64,000 nucleotides of DNA from Halostagnicola larsenii XH-48 (GTDB lineage Archaea > Halobacteriota > Halobacteria > Halobacteriales > Natrialbaceae). The stretch is from assembly GCF_000517625.1 (NCBI RefSeq), contig NZ_CP007055.1, positions 620,001 through 684,000 on the forward strand, in the 5' to 3' direction. The position numbers were made by a program, and so were the translations under genes. Numbering within the stretch: position 1 is the stretch's first letter; every line of letters starts with the position of its first letter. The notes beneath the pieces were generated by a model. It searched no databases and was not told where the DNA came from. It saw only the letters and a list, made by a program, of their open reading frames with translations. This document shows positions 14,553-27,832 of the stretch, piece by piece.

Positions 14553-15119
14553 ATGGATCAGTTACAGCGGTCACTACTCGAGGCCCCGATTATCGAGAAA
14601 GACGGGTATCATTACTTCGTCCATCCGATCAGCGACGGGGTTCCGAAACTCGATCCCGGACTCTTGCGCGAGATCGTGATCCGGATTATTCGAAAGGCGA
14701 AACTCGAGGAAGTCGATCGTATCGTCACGCCCGCGGCCATGGGAATTCACATCTCCACGGCCGTATCGTTGATGACGGACATCCCGCTGACGGTGATTCG
14801 AAAACGACAGTACGGACTCGAAGACGAAGTCGCCATCTCCCAGCAGACCGGTTACTCGGAAAACGAGATGTACATCAACGACGTTCGCGAGGGCGAACGC
14901 GTCCTCGTCCTCGACGACGTGCTCTCGACCGGCGGCACGCTGGCTGCCGTCCTCGAGGCGCTTGACGAAATCGGTGCCGAGGTCGTCGACACGGTCGCGG
15001 TAATCAAGAAGGTCGGCGGCGAAAACAAAGTCGAGGACGTCGACCACCACGTCAAGACGCTGGTCAACGTCGACGTCGTCGACGGTGAGGTCGTTATCGT
15101 CGACGAAAACGGCGACTGA
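14553..15119 (+). CDS. hpt: Hypoxanthine/adenine phosphoribosyltransferase (archaeal Hpt)
   Basis: This 188-residue type I phosphoribosyltransferase has its PRPP loop [13 protein letters not shown] at residues 117-129. The N-terminal block [28 protein letters not shown] is the one I recognise in haloarchaeal Hpt. It salvages purine bases to nucleotides. It is the second of three phosphoribosyltransferases in the window. It is followed after 86 bases by the first peptide transporter locus, which has its own TATA box. Confidence 0.9.
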
Positions 15120-15205: not shown

Positions 15206-17170
15206 ATGCGCCGATTGAACGCCCAATCAGGGGACCTTCCGACTCGCCGCCAGTTGCTCGGCGGCGTCGGTTCGGTACTCGTCGGGAGTGCAGCGGGGTG
15301 TCTCGACGCGGACTCCGGTGAGGTTTCGTTTCCGCTCGAGGTCCGGTTAGAAGTGGATGCGGACAACTCGGACCGCCTCGAGTGGACCGCCGCGGTCGCG
15401 CAGGTGATGGAAAACACCGGTTACTTCGACGTCGAAGTCAAAGAGTACGAGTTCGACGATTTTCTCGAACGCATCTTTCAGGTCGACTATCCCGAAACGG
15501 GAAATATCCCGTTTCTCAGTATTTCGGGGACGTTCAATCCGGAGAGCTTCTGTGATTCGCTCCACGGCACGGCAAATCAGGGCCAGTGTTGTAACCTGAA
15601 CGGACTCGGCTACGACGAACTCGACCGGATGATCGATCGCGCGCGCTTTGGCACCGACGTCGTCGACGATCCGGCGCTCCGGGCGCGACGATACGACGAA
15701 ATCTGGCGCGAGTTAGCCGAGTACCGCGGCAGTTCACCGATCACGTTCATCACCGAAGAGTACGTCCGAAGTACGGACGTACGCGGCTTTTCCCCGTATC
15801 CGTTTACCGAGGGGACGCTCGATTACTCGCTGCACTCGCCGGCCGCTCGAGTTCTCACCTGGATCGATCGGGACGCCGACGGCGAGGGAGATTCCGACTG
15901 GTCGACGTACGAGTCGGGCGGTACGCTCCGGTACGGATTCGACGCGAACATCAACTCGTTCGATCCGCCCTACAGCACCGATACGCACTCGACGACGGCA
16001 CAGTCGCTCATTTTCGAAGGGCTAACCGCGATGGATGCCGATGGGAACGTCTATCCCTGGTTGGCAAAACGCCAGGAGGAACTCGATGTGCAGGATATCG
16101 ACCGCACCGCGTACGAACCGTATATGCGAACCGTCTCGGCCGACGACGACGGCGTCCTCGAGTTCGAGGGCGACGAACCGGTTCAGACCGTCGTGGTTCA
16201 TCCGGACGACGATCGGATCGCCGACGGCGAGGTTCGCGTTCTCACGCCCGACGGCGCGGCCGATGCGGTCGGCAATGGGGTCTATGGAATGCAGTATCGA
16301 TACCACCTTCACGAGGGCGTCAGGTTCCACAACGGCGAAGAGTTGACCGCCGAACACGTGGTGGCGACCGCAAAGCGCTACGAGAACTCCGACATCTCCG
16401 CACAGACGTTCGATTCGGTACTCCACGTCGAGTCCGTCGACGAGTACGTCGTCGATATCTACGCGCAGGTGCCGGACGCCGAAGCCGAGCGGGAACTCCC
16501 GAGCTTCCGGATCCACGCGCTCGAACAGGCGGAACTGCCCGCCAACGGCATCGATCCACTCGACGGAAGCCCGCCGATCGGTACCGGCCCCTACGAGTTC
16601 GAGACGTTCGAGGACGGACAGTACTTCGTGGCACGAAAAACGGACGACTACTGGCTCGAGCAAAAAGGGCTGGACGCCCTCGAGTGGTACGACGGTCCCG
16701 AGGGGTTCCCCGCCGGGCCCGTCATCGACGAGATCGACATCAAAATCATTTCGGGCGATTCGACGCGAAGCACTGCACTCCAGAACGGCGAAATCGACAT
16801 CACGTTCGGGCTCGTTTCCTCGACGCTCGAGGCCTACGACTCGGACGACGGTTACGTCGTCGACTCGATCCAGAGCGGCGGCTATCAGTTCCTCCAGTAT
16901 CCCGTCACCGTCGAACCGTGGGACGACGAGCGGTTTCGACGGGCCGTCAATCACCTCGTCCCTCGAGAGCGCATCGTCGAAAACGTCCTCGACGGCTGGG
17001 GCGACCCCGCGTGGACGATGCTTCCGGAAGTCGCACGCGAAACCGGTACGGCCGACTACGAGGCGCTCGAGTCCGACCTCGGGGAGAAAAACGCGTTCGA
17101 TACGGAGACCGCGATCGAATTGATCGAAACAGTCATCGACGACCGCGGATACGACTCGAGCGTCCAATGA
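15206..17170 (+). CDS. Circularly permuted peptide-binding lipoprotein of ABC transporter (family 5)
   Basis: This 654-residue secreted lipoprotein has a Tat-type leader: Arg14-Arg15 in PTRRQLLGG and lipobox Cys32 in GSAAGC. The domain order is unusual. Residues about 41-222 match the C-terminal block of the paralogue encoded at 25817-27832 (GQCCN against NGCCNFF, RFGTDVV against RFGVDVA, ending LTWIDRD against VIYLDR). Residues 239-654 match that paralogue's N-terminal and central parts (FHNGEELTAEHV, GTGPYEFETFE). Nothing is missing, and the total lengths are nearly equal. It should bind oligopeptides outside the cell. Its stop overlaps the next ATG (ATGA), so it is coupled to the permeases. 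Confidence 0.9.
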   Translation: MRRLNAQSGDLPTRRQLLGGVGSVLVGSAAGCLDADSGEVSFPLEVRLEVDADNSDRLEWTAAVAQVMENTGYFDVEVKEYEFDDFLERIFQVDYPETGNIPFLSISGTFNPESFCDSLHGTANQGQCCNLNGLGYDELDRMIDRARFGTDVVDDPALRARRYDEIWRELAEYRGSSPITFITEEYVRSTDVRGFSPYPFTEGTLDYSLHSPAARVLTWIDRDADGEGDSDWSTYESGGTLRYGFDANINSFDPPYSTDTHSTTAQSLIFEGLTAMDADGNVYPWLAKRQEELDVQDIDRTAYEPYMRTVSADDDGVLEFEGDEPVQTVVVHPDDDRIADGEVRVLTPDGAADAVGNGVYGMQYRYHLHEGVRFHNGEELTAEHVVATAKRYENSDISAQTFDSVLHVESVDEYVVDIYAQVPDAEAERELPSFRIHALEQAELPANGIDPLDGSPPIGTGPYEFETFEDGQYFVARKTDDYWLEQKGLDALEWYDGPEGFPAGPVIDEIDIKIISGDSTRSTALQNGEIDITFGLVSSTLEAYDSDDGYVVDSIQSGGYQFLQYPVTVEPWDDERFRRAVNHLVPRERIVENVLDGWGDPAWTMLPEVARETGTADYEALESDLGEKNAFDTETAIELIETVIDDRGYDSSVQ

Positions 17171-18120
17171 CGTTCCGACGGTTCGTCCTGCGACGGTTGC
17201 TGTTGATCGTCCCGATCCTGCTGGGTGTCTCGGTACTCACGTTCGCGCTCGTCCACCTGACGCCCGGTGACCCGATCAGCCGCATGGTCGCCCAGAACCC
17301 GCACGTGACCGCGGCCGAGGAGGCGCAACTTCGCGCCCAGTACGGCCTCGACGGCCCCGTCTGGGAGCAGTATCTGATGTGGCTCGGAAACGTCCTCTCC
17401 GGTGACCTCGGAACGGTCTACGGATCGAACCGGTCGGTTTCTGAAGTCATTCTCTTGCGACTCCCCGAAACCGTCGCGCTCGGCGTCTTCGGCTGGGTGT
17501 TCGCTATCGGCATCGCGATTCCGACCGGAATATACGCCGCGATCCGAAAGGGAACGGTCGGCGATACGGCCAGCCGAGTCCTCGCGCTGTCGGGAGCGTC
17601 GATTCCGAACTTCTGGCTCGGGCTGTTGCTCATCCTCGTGTTCGTGTTGTGGATGGGGTGGTGGGACGTACGGCCGCCGCGTGAACCGCTTACGCATCCG
17701 TCGGTGCTGTGGCACCTCGTCCTGCCGGGTATTACGGTCGGGACGGCGACGTGTGCGTCGGTCATGCGCGTTCTCCGCAGGTCGATGGCAGAAGAACTGA
17801 ACAAGGAGTACACCACCGCCGCAAGAGCAAAGGGGCTCCCCGAACGGCAGGTCGTCTGCAAGCACGTACTTCGAAATTCGTTGAGTGCGGTCGTCACCAT
17901 CGTCGCGACGCTGACCGCCGGCATCGTCGCCGGCGCCGTCGTCGTCGAGGTCGTGTTCGCCTGGCCCGGCCTCGGACAGGAACTCGTCGGGGCGATCCAC
18001 GGTCACGAGATCAACCTCGTGGTGGGAATAACGCTCCTTACCGCGGTGTTCGTCGTCCTCTGTAACCTGCTCGCGGATATCATCTACGCGGTGCTCGATC
18101 CGCGGATCAGATATGACTGA
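17167..18120 (+). CDS. ABC transporter permease, DppB/OppB type
   Basis: This 317-residue inner-membrane permease has six predicted helices. It begins MTFRRFVLRRLLLIVPILLGVSVLTFALVHLTPGDP, the standard DppB start, and has an EAA loop around EELNKEYTTAARAKGLPE. It forms half of the transmembrane channel for the adjacent lipoprotein. It overlaps its neighbours by 4 bases upstream and 8 downstream. No ATPase gene follows in this locus. Confidence 0.93.
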   Translation: MTFRRFVLRRLLLIVPILLGVSVLTFALVHLTPGDPISRMVAQNPHVTAAEEAQLRAQYGLDGPVWEQYLMWLGNVLSGDLGTVYGSNRSVSEVILLRLPETVALGVFGWVFAIGIAIPTGIYAAIRKGTVGDTASRVLALSGASIPNFWLGLLLILVFVLWMGWWDVRPPREPLTHPSVLWHLVLPGITVGTATCASVMRVLRRSMAEELNKEYTTAARAKGLPERQVVCKHVLRNSLSAVVTIVATLTAGIVAGAVVVEVVFAWPGLGQELVGAIHGHEINLVVGITLLTAVFVVLCNLLADIIYAVLDPRIRYD

Positions 18121-19189
18121 CAAACAATCCGGTCGCGGCCGAATTCGGATCCACGGATTCGAATCCGAACGCGACGGCGCTCGAGACGGACCGACTCACC
18201 GGACGAGACTTCCTCGAGAGGATTCGGTCGATTGGGGCTCGGACGCACGAACCGAGCCGACCACGCGCTGGCGGCGCGACCTCTCGCGGTTCGCTCGAAA
18301 CCGCGAGGCGCTGGTGGGACTCTTGATCGTCCTCTCGATGGCGGTCCTTTCGATCTTCGCCCGGCCGATAGAACTCTGGGGTCTGACAGTCCAGCCGGTT
18401 TCGCTGGCGCCGTATTCCCCCTCGGAAATCCTCTGGCTCACCCAGGACGTCTCGCCCTACGACCCGCCGTCGCTGGCGCACCCGATGGGCGTCGACGGCG
18501 AGGGACGCGACGTCTTTTCGCGGGTGCTGACCGGCGGTCGCTACAGCATCTCGATCGGGCTCGTCGTCGTCACGATCACGAGCGTGATCGGCATCGTGTA
18601 CGGCTCCATCTCCGGCTATTACGGCGGCTGGGTCGACGAACTCCTGATGCGGTTCGTCGACGTTATCCTCGCGTTTCCGGGGCTCGTCCTGGCGCTGGTC
18701 GTCGTCGCGCTGTTCGAGAGCGGCTACTGGCAACTGGTCGTCGCGTTCTCCGTGTTCGGCTGGGCGGGGTACGCTCGAGTCATCCGCGGGGAAGTACTCT
18801 CCGTCAAAGAATCGGAGTACGTCCTCGCGGCGAAAGCGCTCGGGGCCGGCGATCGATCGGTGCTGTTCAGGCACGTCGTGCCCAACGCCGCCCCGCCGGT
18901 CATCGTCCTCGCAACGCTCAACATCGGGACGGTCGTCATCGGCGTGGCCGCCCTCGGCTTTCTCGGCCTCGGCCTGTCGCCGGCGACCGCCGAGTGGGGG
19001 ACGATGCTCGAGGGCGCTCGAGACGCGATCATCCAAGGACCGGGCGGCGACGCTCGCTGGTGGGTGACGGTCTTCCCCGGCGGCGCGATTTTCGTCTTCG
19101 TGCTGTCGATCAACCTGATCGGCGACGCCATCAACGAGACGCTCGACGCCCGCGGAACCGACTCGGCGACCCGAACCGAATTGCGATGA
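18113..19189 (+). CDS. ABC transporter permease, DppC/OppC type
   Basis: This 358-residue permease has a polar N-terminal tail of about 65 residues, then the DppC core (MGVDGEGRDVFSRVLTGGRYSISIG, EAA loop VLAAKALGAGDRSVLFRHVVPN). Its tail starts with a GRIRIHGFESE motif that parallels GRIQVSGFETE in the second locus's DppC (23805-24821), so the two are paralogues. The operon ends here without the DppD/DppF ATPases, which suggests the complex borrows the ATPases encoded at 21096-23805. Confidence 0.93.
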   Translation: MTDKQSGRGRIRIHGFESERDGARDGPTHRTRLPREDSVDWGSDARTEPTTRWRRDLSRFARNREALVGLLIVLSMAVLSIFARPIELWGLTVQPVSLAPYSPSEILWLTQDVSPYDPPSLAHPMGVDGEGRDVFSRVLTGGRYSISIGLVVVTITSVIGIVYGSISGYYGGWVDELLMRFVDVILAFPGLVLALVVVALFESGYWQLVVAFSVFGWAGYARVIRGEVLSVKESEYVLAAKALGAGDRSVLFRHVVPNAAPPVIVLATLNIGTVVIGVAALGFLGLGLSPATAEWGTMLEGARDAIIQGPGGDARWWVTVFPGGAIFVFVLSINLIGDAINETLDARGTDSATRTELR

Positions 19190-19307
19190 TCCCTCGCTCC
19201 CGCGAATCGCTGTTTCGAAGATTGCCCTGTTTCCTCGACCGACACTGAACAGGCGTTTCGTCCCGCTCGTCGAATGTCTTTTTGTGATAGACCGGATGGG
19301 AAGTAGT

Positions 19308-19874
19308 ATGTCAAACGACGAATCGGCGGCCGAACGAATCGCATATCGGCGACAGAACGCCGTCGACCCCGAAGCGTTTCTCCGCGACCTTGCGGTCATC
19401 GAACCGACCGATCAGGACGAGAACCTCCAGTTCACCCCCAAATTCGTCTCCAGGATCGATCGACAGCTCGAGCAGGTTCGCTCGACGGGCGTCGAGACGG
19501 CCGATATCGCCGTCATGTTCGGCGTCGACGAGGAGCACGTGACGGAGGCAGATCGATCGTACACGGCCTACAAGACCCACGCGACGGTTCGAAACTGGCC
19601 GTCGGAGGCGGCCCTCGAGCTAGACGTCGCGACCGACAGGGAACTCCGCGCGGAGACCGACCGATGGGACGAGGTGCCGCCCAGACAACGCTACCGGCTG
19701 TTACAATCGCTTCGGTCGTTTCGGGACGACTGTCCCTTCTGTGGGGGGTCGGTATCGATCGGCGACGAAACGGTCGAGTCTTGCTGTGGAGATACCGAGG
19801 TCGTGACGGTCGGCTGCGGGGACTGTGACCGTCGATTCCTCGAGTTCTCCGCAGATTCCATCCGGGGGGCGTGA
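19308..19874 (+). CDS. Haloarchaeal protein with C-terminal zinc-ribbon, unknown function
   Basis: This 188-residue acidic protein has a helical N-terminal part and a four-cysteine C-terminal ribbon: CPFCGG, then CC and CGDC. I do not recognise the family. The central part (DIAVMFGVDEEHVTEADRSYTAYKTHATVRNW) could be a helix-turn-helix, but that is weak. The ATG at 19308 is chosen because CTTTTTGTG lies about 25-30 bases upstream. The next gene on this strand (20023) also encodes a small cysteine-containing protein, but no functional link is evident. Confidence 0.7.
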   Translation: MSNDESAAERIAYRRQNAVDPEAFLRDLAVIEPTDQDENLQFTPKFVSRIDRQLEQVRSTGVETADIAVMFGVDEEHVTEADRSYTAYKTHATVRNWPSEAALELDVATDRELRAETDRWDEVPPRQRYRLLQSLRSFRDDCPFCGGSVSIGDETVESCCGDTEVVTVGCGDCDRRFLEFSADSIRGA

Positions 19875-21095: not shown

Positions 21096-22478
21096 TCAGT
21101 CGTCCGCGATCGTTCCGTCGGTGCGGGAGCCGTCGCGTTCGGCCGTTCGGCTATCGTACTCGTCGTCGTAGCGCAGACAGTCGATCTCGTGGGTCCGAGA
21201 TAGTTCGACGGTCGACGGGTCGGTCGTTTCACACGGCGAGACGAACCGCTCGTCGAGCGTTTCCGCGGCGGCGGTGCTATCGACCGAGTGCAACTCATCT
21301 ATCGCACTCGCGAGCAGGTCCTCAGCGGCGGGATCGGACAGGCGCTCGGGAATCCCGAACTCCGATCGGACCAGTTCGTCGATCCGCGCCCGGGAAAGCA
21401 CACTTGGGTCCTCTCGAGCCGATTCATCGGTGATCGTGGCGAGTTCGTCGACGGATTCGGCGTCCTCGGCCCGGAGTTTAAAGTTCAGCACCGATCGCCA
21501 CGCGGACTGCTCGAGGTCGAACTCCTCGGGCTGGATAACGCGGGGACACCGCGTGTGGAACCGACAGCCCGAGGGCGGGTCGATCGGGGACGGGACCTGT
21601 CCCTCGAGGAGGATTTTTTCGCCCTCCCAGAGGGGGTCCGGTTCGGGAATCGCAGAGAGTAGCGCCTCTGTGTAGGGATGGTACGGCTCTGCGAACACCT
21701 CTTCTGTCGTGCCGACCTCGGCGAACTCGCCGAGGTACATCACCGCGATCCGGTCTGCGATGTGTTCGACGACGCTGAGATCGTGTGCGATGAAGATATA
21801 CGAGAGGTCGAACTCCTCTTGGAGATCCTCGAGCAGATTCAGGATCTGCGCCTGCACGCTGACGTCGAGGGCGCTCACGGGTTCGTCGCAGACGATGATC
21901 TCCGGGTCGACCGCCAGCGCTCGAGCGATGCCGATCCGCTGGCGCTGTCCGCCGGAGAACTCGTGTGGATAGCGGTAGGCGTGGGTCGGGTTGAGCCCGA
22001 CGATTTCGAGCAGTTCCTGTACTCGCTCGGTTCGAGCCGCTCCCTCGGCGATACCGTGGATGTCGAGCGGTTCGCCGATGATGTCGCCGACGGTGAGACG
22101 CGGGTTCAGACTCGAGAACGGGTCCTGAAAGATGTACTGGAGGTCAGTTCGCAGGTCCCGAAGCTCCGAACTCGAGAGATCGGTTAGCTCGATCTCTCGA
22201 GTCGTGCCGTCGTCCGTCCGTTTGGCGTACGTAATCGAGCCGCCGGTCGGCTCGATGAGTCGCAGCATCGATCGACCGAGCGTCGTCTTGCCACAGCCGC
22301 TCTCGCCGACGATACCCAGGGTTTCGCCGGGGTACAACTCAAGGTCGATCCCGTCGACCGCCTTGACGAGTTCCGACCGGCCGAGGAGGGTATCGAGAAA
22401 CCCGCTGTTGGATTCGTAGTGTTTCCGCAGGCCGTCGGTCCGCAAGATCGGTTGGTCGTCGTTACTCATGTCGCTCAC
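21096..22478 (-). CDS. Peptide ABC transporter ATPase, DppF/OppF type
   Basis: This 460-residue ATPase has Walker A GESGCGKT at residues 58-65, Q-loop FQDP at 117-120, signature SGGQRQ at 175-180, Walker B IIVCDEP and a C-terminal oligopeptide/dipeptide block with RFHTRCPR, the Cys of which often belongs to an iron-sulfur site in this subfamily. A C-terminal tail of about 130 acidic residues beyond the usual end is longer than bacterial DppF. It overlaps the upstream ATPase gene by 17 bases. It drives transport with the partner encoded at 22462-23805, and possibly also for the first locus. Confidence 0.94.
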
Positions 22479-23805
22479 CCGGTATGCGTTCGTTCGGGAC
22501 GTGATCGTCCTCGACGGTGACGGTGTAGCTGATTCCTTCCTCGAGGTCGCCGGTGTACTCGAGACACTTCGCGGACCGACCCTTTCCGTCGACGTCGTCG
22601 AACTCGACCATCCGGGGCTCTTTTCGCTGACAGCTCCGTTCCGCGTACGGACAGCGCGGGTGGAAGCTACACCCCGATGGCGTCTCGATCAGGTCGGGCA
22701 TCGTCCCGGGGATCGTCTGTAGTCGGTCGCGGTCGTCGCCGATCCGCGGGATCGAACTCATCAGTCCGACGGTGTAGGGGTGTTTCGGGTCGTAGTACAG
22801 CTCTTCGACCGGCGACTTCTCGACGGGCTGGCCCGCGTACATCACCATCACCCGGTCACAGAGTTCGGCGACGACGCCGAGGTCGTGGGTGATGAGCTGG
22901 ACCGCGGTATCGAACTCGTCGGTGAGTTCCTCGAGCAGATCCAGAATCTTCGCTTCGGTCGTCACGTCCAGCGCCGTCGTCGGTTCGTCGGCGATGATAA
23001 CGTCGGGATCACAGGAAAGCGCCATGGCGATCACCGCCCGCTGTTGCATTCCGCCGGAGAACTCGTGTGGGTAATCCGAGTACCGGTTCTCGGCGTCCGG
23101 AATGCCGACCGTATCGAGCAGTTCGATTCCGCGCTCTTTGGCTTCTGCGTCGTCGTAGTCGAGATGGTGTCTGATCGCCTCGGCGATCTGTTCCCCGACG
23201 GTGTAGACGGGATTGAGTGCGGTCTGGGCGTCCTGAAAGATCATCGAAATGTTGTTCCCACGGAGTCGTCGAATCGCCCCCTCCGGCGCCCGGAGCAGTT
23301 CGGCGTAGCGGCTGTCACCGTCGTGAACGATGAAGTCCTCCTCGTCGATCAGTCCGAGTTTCGTTGCGTACCCCTGATCGACCACGTCGCGCATGCCGAG
23401 GTCGCCATTCGCATACAACTGGTGCAAGTCGACCCCTTCGTGTTCGGGGTCGCCGGTCGCGTCCGCCCCGGAAACGCCGCGTTCCTCGAGCCGGTCGACG
23501 ACGTCGTCGAACGAAGACTCGCGTCGCAGTCGTTCGATGTCGACGACGTTGTCGGGGTAGGATTCCTCGAGTTCCTCGACGGTCTCTGGCTCACAGAATC
23601 GGATTGAGCCGTGTTCGATCTCGCCGGGACTCTCGATGAGACGCAGCAGCGATAGCGCAGTCACGCTTTTTCCCGCCCCGCTCTCGCCGACGACGCCGAA
23701 CTTCTCGCCGGCGTCGATCGTGTAAGAGAGATCGTCGACCGCCGTAACGACGCCTTCTGCGGTGTAAAACGAAACCGTCAGGTTGTCCACCTCGAGCAGC
23801 GCCAT
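22462..23805 (-). CDS. Peptide ABC transporter ATPase, DppD/OppD type
   Basis: This 447-residue ATPase has Walker A GESGAGKS, signature SGGMQQRAV, Walker [14 protein letters not shown] and the C-terminal [13 protein letters not shown] block. Between Walker A and the Q-loop there is an acidic insertion of about 100 residues ([18 protein letters not shown] and later), which I have seen in haloarchaeal DppD proteins. Its ATG shares one base with the stop of the permease gene upstream, so translation is coupled. Confidence 0.94.
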
Positions 23806-25816: not shown

Positions 25817-27832
25817 CTATCTGTCAAGGTATATGACTTGCTCGTCTGCGGGATTGTACAGCGCGTAACTCAGCAACACCTGGGTCTGTGGGTGTGCGTT
25901 GAATCCGACGACGTCGCTGTTCGTCGTCCCGGTGTTCAACGAATAATCGATGATCGTATTCGCACTCATCTCCGAATATTCCGGCCAGAACTCGTCGTAC
26001 GCCGCTCGGCGAGCGTCTTCATCTTCGGCGACATCGACGCCGAACCGACAGCCGCGCATTTGTTCGATGAAGTCGTCGGGAAGCACTCCCTCCGCGAGGA
26101 AGAAGTTACAGCAACCGTTGTAGTTGTCGGGGTCGGTGATCGCTTCAACGAACCCGTGTGGATCGGGTGTTCCCGCGAGACCGATACACGCCGGGGCGTT
26201 GCGCTCTGAACTGTCGGTCCGTGCATCCTCCTGATAGAGCTCGGCGACCCAATCACCGAGCGCCGCCGGCGTTTCGAGTTCGGCGTCGAACAGGTCGGTA
26301 TCGTTCAGTTGGTCGACGAGAAGCTCCATCTTGTCGCTTCGCGCGTCGTCGTCGGCGTTCGTTTCGATCACGACTTCGATGGGCGTCTCGACGCCCGCGT
26401 CCTCGAGGAGCGATTTGGCCTCCTCGACGTCGGGTTCGACGTTGTACGCCCAGTCCGAGTCGACGATGTCGTCGTAGGGCTCGGACGTCCCCAGGTCGGC
26501 AGCGGGTTGTGGAAACGGCACCTGGGCGGGCGCACCCCATCCTTGCTCGACCACGTCGACGATCTGCTGGCGAGGGACGAGGGCGCTGACCGCCTGCCGA
26601 ACCGCCTTTTCGGAGAACGCTCCCCCCGTATCGGTATCGTCCATGGGGAACTGCATGAACTGGAACCCTAACGCTTCGGTCGCCGAAACCGTGAAATCGT
26701 CGGACGTGTGGAAATTGTTCCGGGCCCCGGCGGGTAGTTCGTATGCGATATCGACGCTCCCGTCTTCGAGCGCGTTGCTCCGAGTGCTCCCTTCGGCGAC
26801 GAACCGGATGTTGATCTCGTCGATAACCGGCCCCTCCGGGAACTCGCTCGGTCCGTCGTACCACGGAATGTTGTCGAGACCGACCGATTCGACCCAGTAA
26901 TTGTCCGTTCGCTCGAGGAGGAGTTGCTGGCCGCCCTCGTACTCTGTGACTTCGTACGGACCCGTGCCGACCGGCACCATATCTGCGTCATTTCGTGGGT
27001 CCAGTTCGCCGGCCGGGACGTCGAAGTGATCCGAGGGGAAAATCACGGGCGGCAACTCGAGGTATGCGGCGGCGTCGGCCTCCTGGGCGTAGAGTTCGAA
27101 CCGGTAGCCGTCGGCCCCGTCGGGTGCTTCGGCGTGGAGGAAACTATCGAAGTACTGCCCCTGATTGTCGGACCCGACGTACCTGTCGTAGGATCGGATA
27201 ACGTTTTCCGCGGTCACTTCCTCGCCGTTGTGGAACTCGATTCCCTCGTGGAGTCGTCCCTCGACTCGGACACCGAAGACGCCGTCGGCGACGGCATCGG
27301 CGGCCTCGTCTCGAGTGAGAACGCGGATCGAGTCTCCGTCCTCGGCGGGGAGGTCGTCCGGGTGTTGCATCAAAACGAGGTTGTTGTCGTCTTCCAGTTC
27401 GAAAATAGGGACCCCGTCTTCGACTTCGGCGGGTTCGATCGCGACCATATAGTCTTCGTAGTCCGCCACGCTCACGTCGTTGGCTTCGTCCGCCTCGTAC
27501 TCTGCGGCCATCCACGGATGGGCTCTTGCGTCGGAGTCGATCTTTAACAATCCGTCGTAAACGGCGTTGAAAACGACCGTGTCTTCGGCCTGCGTACTCT
27601 GGGCCTGATCGTAGTCTGAAATACCGTCGCGCGGGATCGCGAACTCGAGGCGGCCCCCTTCGGAGATATCGTCGATGTTGACGTCGTTCCGCTCGAGGGC
27701 TTCGTCGATATTTACTTCCTCGTCGTTGCCACCGAGACAGCCGGCGACGCCGGCGATTCCTGTTGCCGCGATTCCTTTGAGGACGCGGCGGCGATCGAGA
27801 GACGATACACGTGAGTTGATTTGTGAGGTCAT
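25817..27832 (-). CDS. Peptide-binding lipoprotein of ABC transporter (family 5), conventional order
   Basis: This 671-residue Tat lipoprotein has twin Arg in SLDRRRVLKG and lipobox Cys32 in GVAGC. The domain order is normal for family 5: N-lobe beginning RLEFAIPRDG, the FHNGEEVTAENV and GTGPYEVTEYE blocks, and the C-terminal block from about residue 481 (VETPIEVVIET) to VIYLDR. The track frame opens at a TTG 15 bases earlier, but the ATG at 27832 is the likely start. A TATA box at 27920-27928 predicts a leader of about 60 bases. It captures peptides for the permease pair downstream. Confidence 0.94.
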   Translation of the reverse strand: MTSQINSRVSSLDRRRVLKGIAATGIAGVAGCLGGNDEEVNIDEALERNDVNIDDISEGGRLEFAIPRDGISDYDQAQSTQAEDTVVFNAVYDGLLKIDSDARAHPWMAAEYEADEANDVSVADYEDYMVAIEPAEVEDGVPIFELEDDNNLVLMQHPDDLPAEDGDSIRVLTRDEAADAVADGVFGVRVEGRLHEGIEFHNGEEVTAENVIRSYDRYVGSDNQGQYFDSFLHAEAPDGADGYRFELYAQEADAAAYLELPPVIFPSDHFDVPAGELDPRNDADMVPVGTGPYEVTEYEGGQQLLLERTDNYWVESVGLDNIPWYDGPSEFPEGPVIDEINIRFVAEGSTRSNALEDGSVDIAYELPAGARNNFHTSDDFTVSATEALGFQFMQFPMDDTDTGGAFSEKAVRQAVSALVPRQQIVDVVEQGWGAPAQVPFPQPAADLGTSEPYDDIVDSDWAYNVEPDVEEAKSLLEDAGVETPIEVVIETNADDDARSDKMELLVDQLNDTDLFDAELETPAALGDWVAELYQEDARTDSSERNAPACIGLAGTPDPHGFVEAITDPDNYNGCCNFFLAEGVLPDDFIEQMRGCRFGVDVAEDEDARRAAYDEFWPEYSEMSANTIIDYSLNTGTTNSDVVGFNAHPQTQVLLSYALYNPADEQVIYLDR

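Follow-up and report, generated by a model that had tools for sequence, protein, structure and literature searches.

A natural circular permutation has been described in Tp0684 (TpMglB-2), a binding protein of Treponema pallidum for which the designation 'Type Ic / Cluster Bc' was proposed, and it has been suggested that anchoring may favour permutation (PMC4990184). Among DNA methyltransferases and transhydrogenases there are likewise families with more than one cyclic order: duplication intermediates are documented for the former and independent fusions for the latter, and where permutation proceeds by duplication, partial duplicates that are functional are expected (PMC3320104). For the cluster C solute-binding proteins (SBPs) a domain layout of I, IIa, III, IIb has been published (PMC7312458); no report of a permuted member was found in the open-access literature.

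The lipoprotein described here is encoded in a window of 64,000 nucleotides (the whole stretch of DNA that was analysed) from Halostagnicola larsenii XH-48. Like Tp0684 it is an SBP of an ABC transporter, lipid-anchored by prediction, with a natural permutation that changes the anchor-bearing part and is conserved in a clade. Tp0684, however, is a glucose binder of cluster B, a different fold cluster, and its permuted part is just 13% identical to unpermuted sequence, whereas the haloarchaeal protein belongs to cluster C (family 5), shows clear homology in both of its blocks and has canonical orthologues at the same locus. 'Cluster Bc' calls for a cluster B glucose/galactose-binding sequence; this is not met, the structure hits being of cluster C/family 5 type. 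Moreover, a single arrangement is described for Tp0684, whereas the haloarchaeal SBP has undergone several changes of order and has a second rotation. With canonical cluster C proteins (DppA, OppA, AppA, NikA; PF00496) it shares matches to both blocks and an operon with DppB/DppC permeases; unlike them, its block order is rotated and its anchor is expected on domain III. The methyltransferases and transhydrogenases are enzymes, whereas the haloarchaeal orders belong to binding proteins and are found in related species at a single conserved place in an operon. Our reading, to which we assign a probability of about 0.87, is that the gene encodes a Tat-exported, lipid-anchored receptor (probably for peptides) of a Dpp/Opp-type ABC importer, the mature chain of which is circularly permuted.

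Circular permutation of the binding lipoprotein

Aligned by BLASTP, the permuted protein and its canonical-order paralogue from the same window (Table 1) give two off-diagonal blocks in swapped order: residues 238-654 match paralogue residues 59-486 (38% identity, E 4e-96) and residues 36-222 match 478-671 (28% identity, E 2e-22). The two blocks together cover both proteins, overlapping by only 9 paralogue residues, and neither protein has a duplicated or lost block; a third short match brings the two Tat lipobox regions into register. If the canonical order is written A-B-C, that of the permuted protein is C-A-B, and the definition of a canonical-order protein is not met. The window lipoprotein is a circular permutation of its paralogue. 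The sequence-only reading had proposed this, with a dot plot as the check and two off-diagonal blocks as the expected outcome, and that is what was obtained; the block boundaries that it gave (41-222 against ~481-671, 239-654 against the rest) are right to within a few residues, and its statement that no block is duplicated or missing is borne out by the small overlap.

Table 1. Coordinates of the permuted gene, its parts, its neighbours and related genes (window positions unless a contig is named).
Feature	Position	Strand	Remarks
Permuted SBP gene	15206-17170	+	654 aa; family-5 solute-binding lipoprotein
Twin-arginine signal peptide (TRRQLLGG) and lipobox ending at predicted lipidated Cys32 (AAGC)	15206..15301	+	sequence reading; paralogue lipobox match
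9-residue tether, lipobox Cys to first folded block	15302..15328	+	canonical relatives mostly 24-42 residues
Moved C-block, residues 42-222 = paralogue ~481-671	15329..15871	+	BLASTP and profiles
13-residue join, residues 223-235, old C-terminus to old N-terminus	15872..15910	+	near-neutral sequence, length conserved
N/central block, residues 236-654 = paralogue 59-486	15911..17167	+	BLASTP
Stop codon TGA, overlapping dppB start (ATGA)	17168..17170	+	sequence
Comparator SBP paralogue, canonical order	25817..27832	-	671 aa
Hypoxanthine/guanine (adenine) phosphoribosyltransferase gene, directly upstream	14553..15119	+	conserved-locus marker
dppB-like permease gene	17167..18120	+	
dppC-like permease gene	18113..19189	+	
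dppD/dppF-like ATPase genes	21096..23805	-	neighbouring canonical operon
G138 lipoprotein, order B-C-A, 634 aa	L097:2906-4810	-	family f15, same locus

The Pfam profile SBP_bac_5 (PF00496) spans positions 22-366 of 368 in the paralogue and only 16-272 of 368 in the permuted protein, where the match over the central region scores 167.8 bits (cut-off 32.4; E 5e-49) and satisfies the profile criterion for family 5/cluster C. All parts of the family 5 fold are nonetheless found in the permuted sequence: the C-terminal third simply sits at the N-terminus. In practice, order-bound profiles overlook this moved third.

A profile built from ten moved segments aligns with the canonical C-terminus over 184 columns (probability 100%, E 1.7e-85). 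Against the PDB it matches only binding proteins of the family 5 type, each time in their C-terminal third: 3m8u (residues 353-500, E 6e-5), OppA (370-509, E 0.008), DppA 1dpp (363-499, E 0.011) and AppA 1xoc (361-507, E 0.086). In terms of domains, the moved block comprises the latter half of domain III and the return segment of domain II. A profile of 19 canonical orthologues aligns with AppA 1xoc over residues 79-509 (E 9e-39) and places the permutation cut near AppA residue 358 which, given the layout I-IIa-III-IIb, lies inside domain III. In the permuted protein the cut falls just before the strand FPLEVRLEV, and the new C-terminal tail at the cut site reads VIDDRGYDSSVQ.

It follows from a cut inside domain III that the new N-terminus, and with it the lipid anchor, is expected on the lobe that normally bears neither end. 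By homology alone, then, the anchor should have moved to the other lobe: it would extend from domain III via a shorter tether rather than from the lobe that holds both old termini. A 13-residue acidic linker joins those termini. The fold itself is inferred, and is expected to be unchanged: a two-lobe Venus flytrap delivering to DppBC. AlphaFold models of the permuted protein and the paralogue reached pLDDT values of only 33 and 40, too low to be usable, probably because the alignments were shallow (6 and 9 admissible sequences).

The N-terminus has the twin-arginine motif and lipobox cysteine that define haloarchaeal Tat lipoproteins (TRRQLLGG...AAGC; PMC2945643), a call made by reading the sequence without a dedicated predictor. 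The end of the join is homologous to the linker that follows the lipobox in canonical proteins (ExDxxDLQEGGTLR). The moved block also contains an adjacent cysteine pair (CCN; GQCCN at 15581-15595) that does not vary in the canonical alignment or among the ten aligned moved segments. Such a pair is unusual for a Tat-exported surface protein; a vicinal disulfide or a metal site is possible.

Locus, conservation and selection

Conservation of the permuted order in other haloarchaea was a further check proposed by the sequence-only reading, and it too was borne out: 47 genomes from 11 genera and three families carry the order intact. Within the window's own family a full-length permuted orthologue is present in 24 genomes (its own included) at 50-81% identity; searches across the order and within families brought in another 21 genomes from f5 and two from f4. 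The species with a permuted protein include Natronolimnohabitans innermongolicus and Halostagnicola sp. A-GB9-2. Families f1, f4, f5, f7, f10 and f14 contain canonical-order orthologues, about equal in length to the permuted proteins and reaching 61% identity in the N block.

In comparisons within the window's genus the moved block has a dN/dS of 0.11-0.12, the rest of the protein 0.20-0.24 and the short join 0.8-1.3. Both blocks are under purifying selection; the join drifts in sequence and keeps its length. Of 40 distinct permuted proteins, 35 have a join of 13-14 residues. Between the lipobox cysteine and the first block, permuted proteins have a tether with a median length of 10.5 residues; in canonical proteins the median is 30.5.

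Most permuted and canonical genes lie in a common operon, the SBP being followed by dppB, dppC, dppD and dppF, so that most loci contain the SBP, two permeases and two ATPases that make up a Dpp/Opp-type operon. A phosphoribosyltransferase gene (HGPRT) precedes the SBP in most f1 loci and in many others. That permuted and canonical genes share this operon implies that the order changed in place while the signal peptide remained at the front. The permuted operon of the window's genus has only the two permeases after the SBP and no ATPase genes of its own, whereas dppD and dppF are present at this position in other genera; their absence counts against the importer reading. The nearest ATPase genes are those of the convergent canonical operon, which suggests that the permuted and canonical operons share ATPases.

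The neighbours of the SBP are permeases of the Dpp/Opp/Nik type, and in our reading the permuted lipoprotein serves a Dpp-type importer as its solute receptor. Its ligand class is inferred from the family, by which peptides are the likely substrate; there are no ligand or transport data. In many genera a purine phosphoribosyltransferase gene lies beside the importer operon, a hint that nucleosides or bases, rather than peptides, may be taken up. A small protein with several cysteine-pair motifs (CPFCGG, CGDCDRR) is encoded at 19284-19874; in many genomes it lies close to the operon, on one strand or the other, and it has no NCBIfam match.

Block order among relatives

Trees were built after restoring the blocks to canonical order. 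The permuted proteins do not form one clade: forcing their monophyly costs the best tree 116 log units (AU p = 8e-5), or 128 with more rows included, and adding the canonical protein L086 (genome G285) to the permuted set does not rescue monophyly (AU p = 0.0013). L086 is in fact sister to the permuted L065 (genome G250) with support of 100/100. The two are reciprocal best hits in both blocks (73% identity in each), occupy the same locus and have nearly identical signal peptides (MSQDTKxSxxVLNRRRLLQGAGAAGV); in a separate tree their permease and ATPase genes are also sisters, with support of 100. A group of canonical proteins from f14 and f4 is likewise nested among permuted ones. In all, well-supported branches force at least three changes for the window-type order: block order changed repeatedly in this protein family. 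Genomes G542 and G383/G541, which share a genus code and differ in order, were considered as a switch within a genus and set aside, since the tree places G542 elsewhere.

A third rotation was observed in one genome, G138. Its lipoprotein has the order B-C-A: after the lipobox come the equivalents of window residues 338-654, 42-222 and 236-316. When a doubled query was used each rotation was recovered as one match, the canonical at 2-603, the window type at 413-1017 and that of G138 at 102-677. The cut in G138 falls in an insertion between AppA residues 75 and 79 that is absent from the solved AppA structure. The closest relative of the G138 protein in the tree is canonical, and its rotation is therefore a separate event. 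It is known from one fragmented assembly only (76% complete, ~220 contigs), and no second example of B-C-A was found among 194 relatives of G138.

A broader claim, which we advance only tentatively, at a little under even odds, is that within one conserved operon slot the order (A-B-C, C-A-B, B-C-A) has changed repeatedly, both away from the canonical arrangement and back to it, with cuts at more than one site.

Possible histories of the rearrangement

The route of rearrangement is inferred. It would have taken place with the signal peptide kept in front and the neighbours of the locus kept, most likely by tandem duplication or fusion followed by trimming, with the junctions inside Gly/Asp/Asn-rich linkers. 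No partially duplicated intermediate (with an extra C or N block) was present among 71 proteins, and a search of flanking DNA for relics of the blocks returned only weak matches resembling distant paralogous binding proteins; the duplication route is thus unproven.

The least plausible account of the data, to which we give almost no credence, is that the moved segment is an unrelated added domain with a chance resemblance to the family, or that the order reflects an error of assembly. Within the window pair the block match is indeed modest (28%), and an N-terminal fragment of the single protein has no Pfam hit. An unrelated domain at residues 41-222 was also what the sequence-only reading had named as grounds for rejecting its proposal. 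This account is contradicted at the sequence level by the profile alignment to the canonical C-terminus, with its probability of 100%, by the BLASTP E value of 2e-22, by an identical order in 47 independent genomes and by purifying selection on the segment. Granted that the permutation is real, its history on the tree can be drawn in several ways. One ancestral permutation could have been followed by at least two reversions to canonical order (in G285 and in the f14/f4 group), by rearrangement or by recombination with canonical alleles. This requires the fewest changes, three for the window-type order; it accords with the near-constant cut and the 13-14-residue join, in which a (T)DLSDLQEGG-like motif is common to all families, and with the linkers of canonical L077/L081 (ADLSGIQEGG) and L086, which look derived from a permuted state. 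However, the nested canonical proteins L078-L080, L082, L083, L085 and L152 retain an ancestral-looking, outgroup-like linker of the VDFADLQEGG type, which reversion does not predict, and we place this history just short of an even chance.

The same retained linker is what would be expected had there been several independent permutations at one permissive hot-spot, canonical order persisting in parallel. The separate origin of the G138 rotation at another site, and junction styles that differ among subclades (FPLEV with a GY tail, APF with a DL tail, LFPL with an AADN tail), fit such a history; it needs about four or more events, however, each cutting within a few residues and leaving a join of equal length, and we regard it as possible and rather doubtful. 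It is also conceivable that order is uncoupled from sequence, canonical and permuted alleles swapping blocks between strains so that the tree exaggerates the number of switches. L077 (G190) has this character: its sibling aside, its N block is closest to permuted L050 (76%) and its C block closest to canonical relatives (73%). In the L065/L086 pair, by contrast, both blocks and the neighbouring permease and ATPase genes agree, and as a general account such swapping seems unlikely. One permutation followed by two reversions remains the most economical history; neither repeated permutation nor block-wise recombination is excluded.

Natural circular permutations are usually viewed as old, isolated events between distant proteins. 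Here haloarchaeal orthologues that are 73% identical in both blocks, and that occupy one locus, differ by a permutation. With permuted and canonical orthologues so close, culturable haloarchaea offer a way to test by which genetic route the order changes, whether functional intermediates are needed and what moving the anchor to the other lobe does. If order has indeed changed repeatedly and in both directions within the one operon slot, haloarchaea would provide a natural example of circular permutation that is both frequent and reversible, with recombination in low-complexity linkers as a possible driver and placement of the anchor as a possible target of selection.
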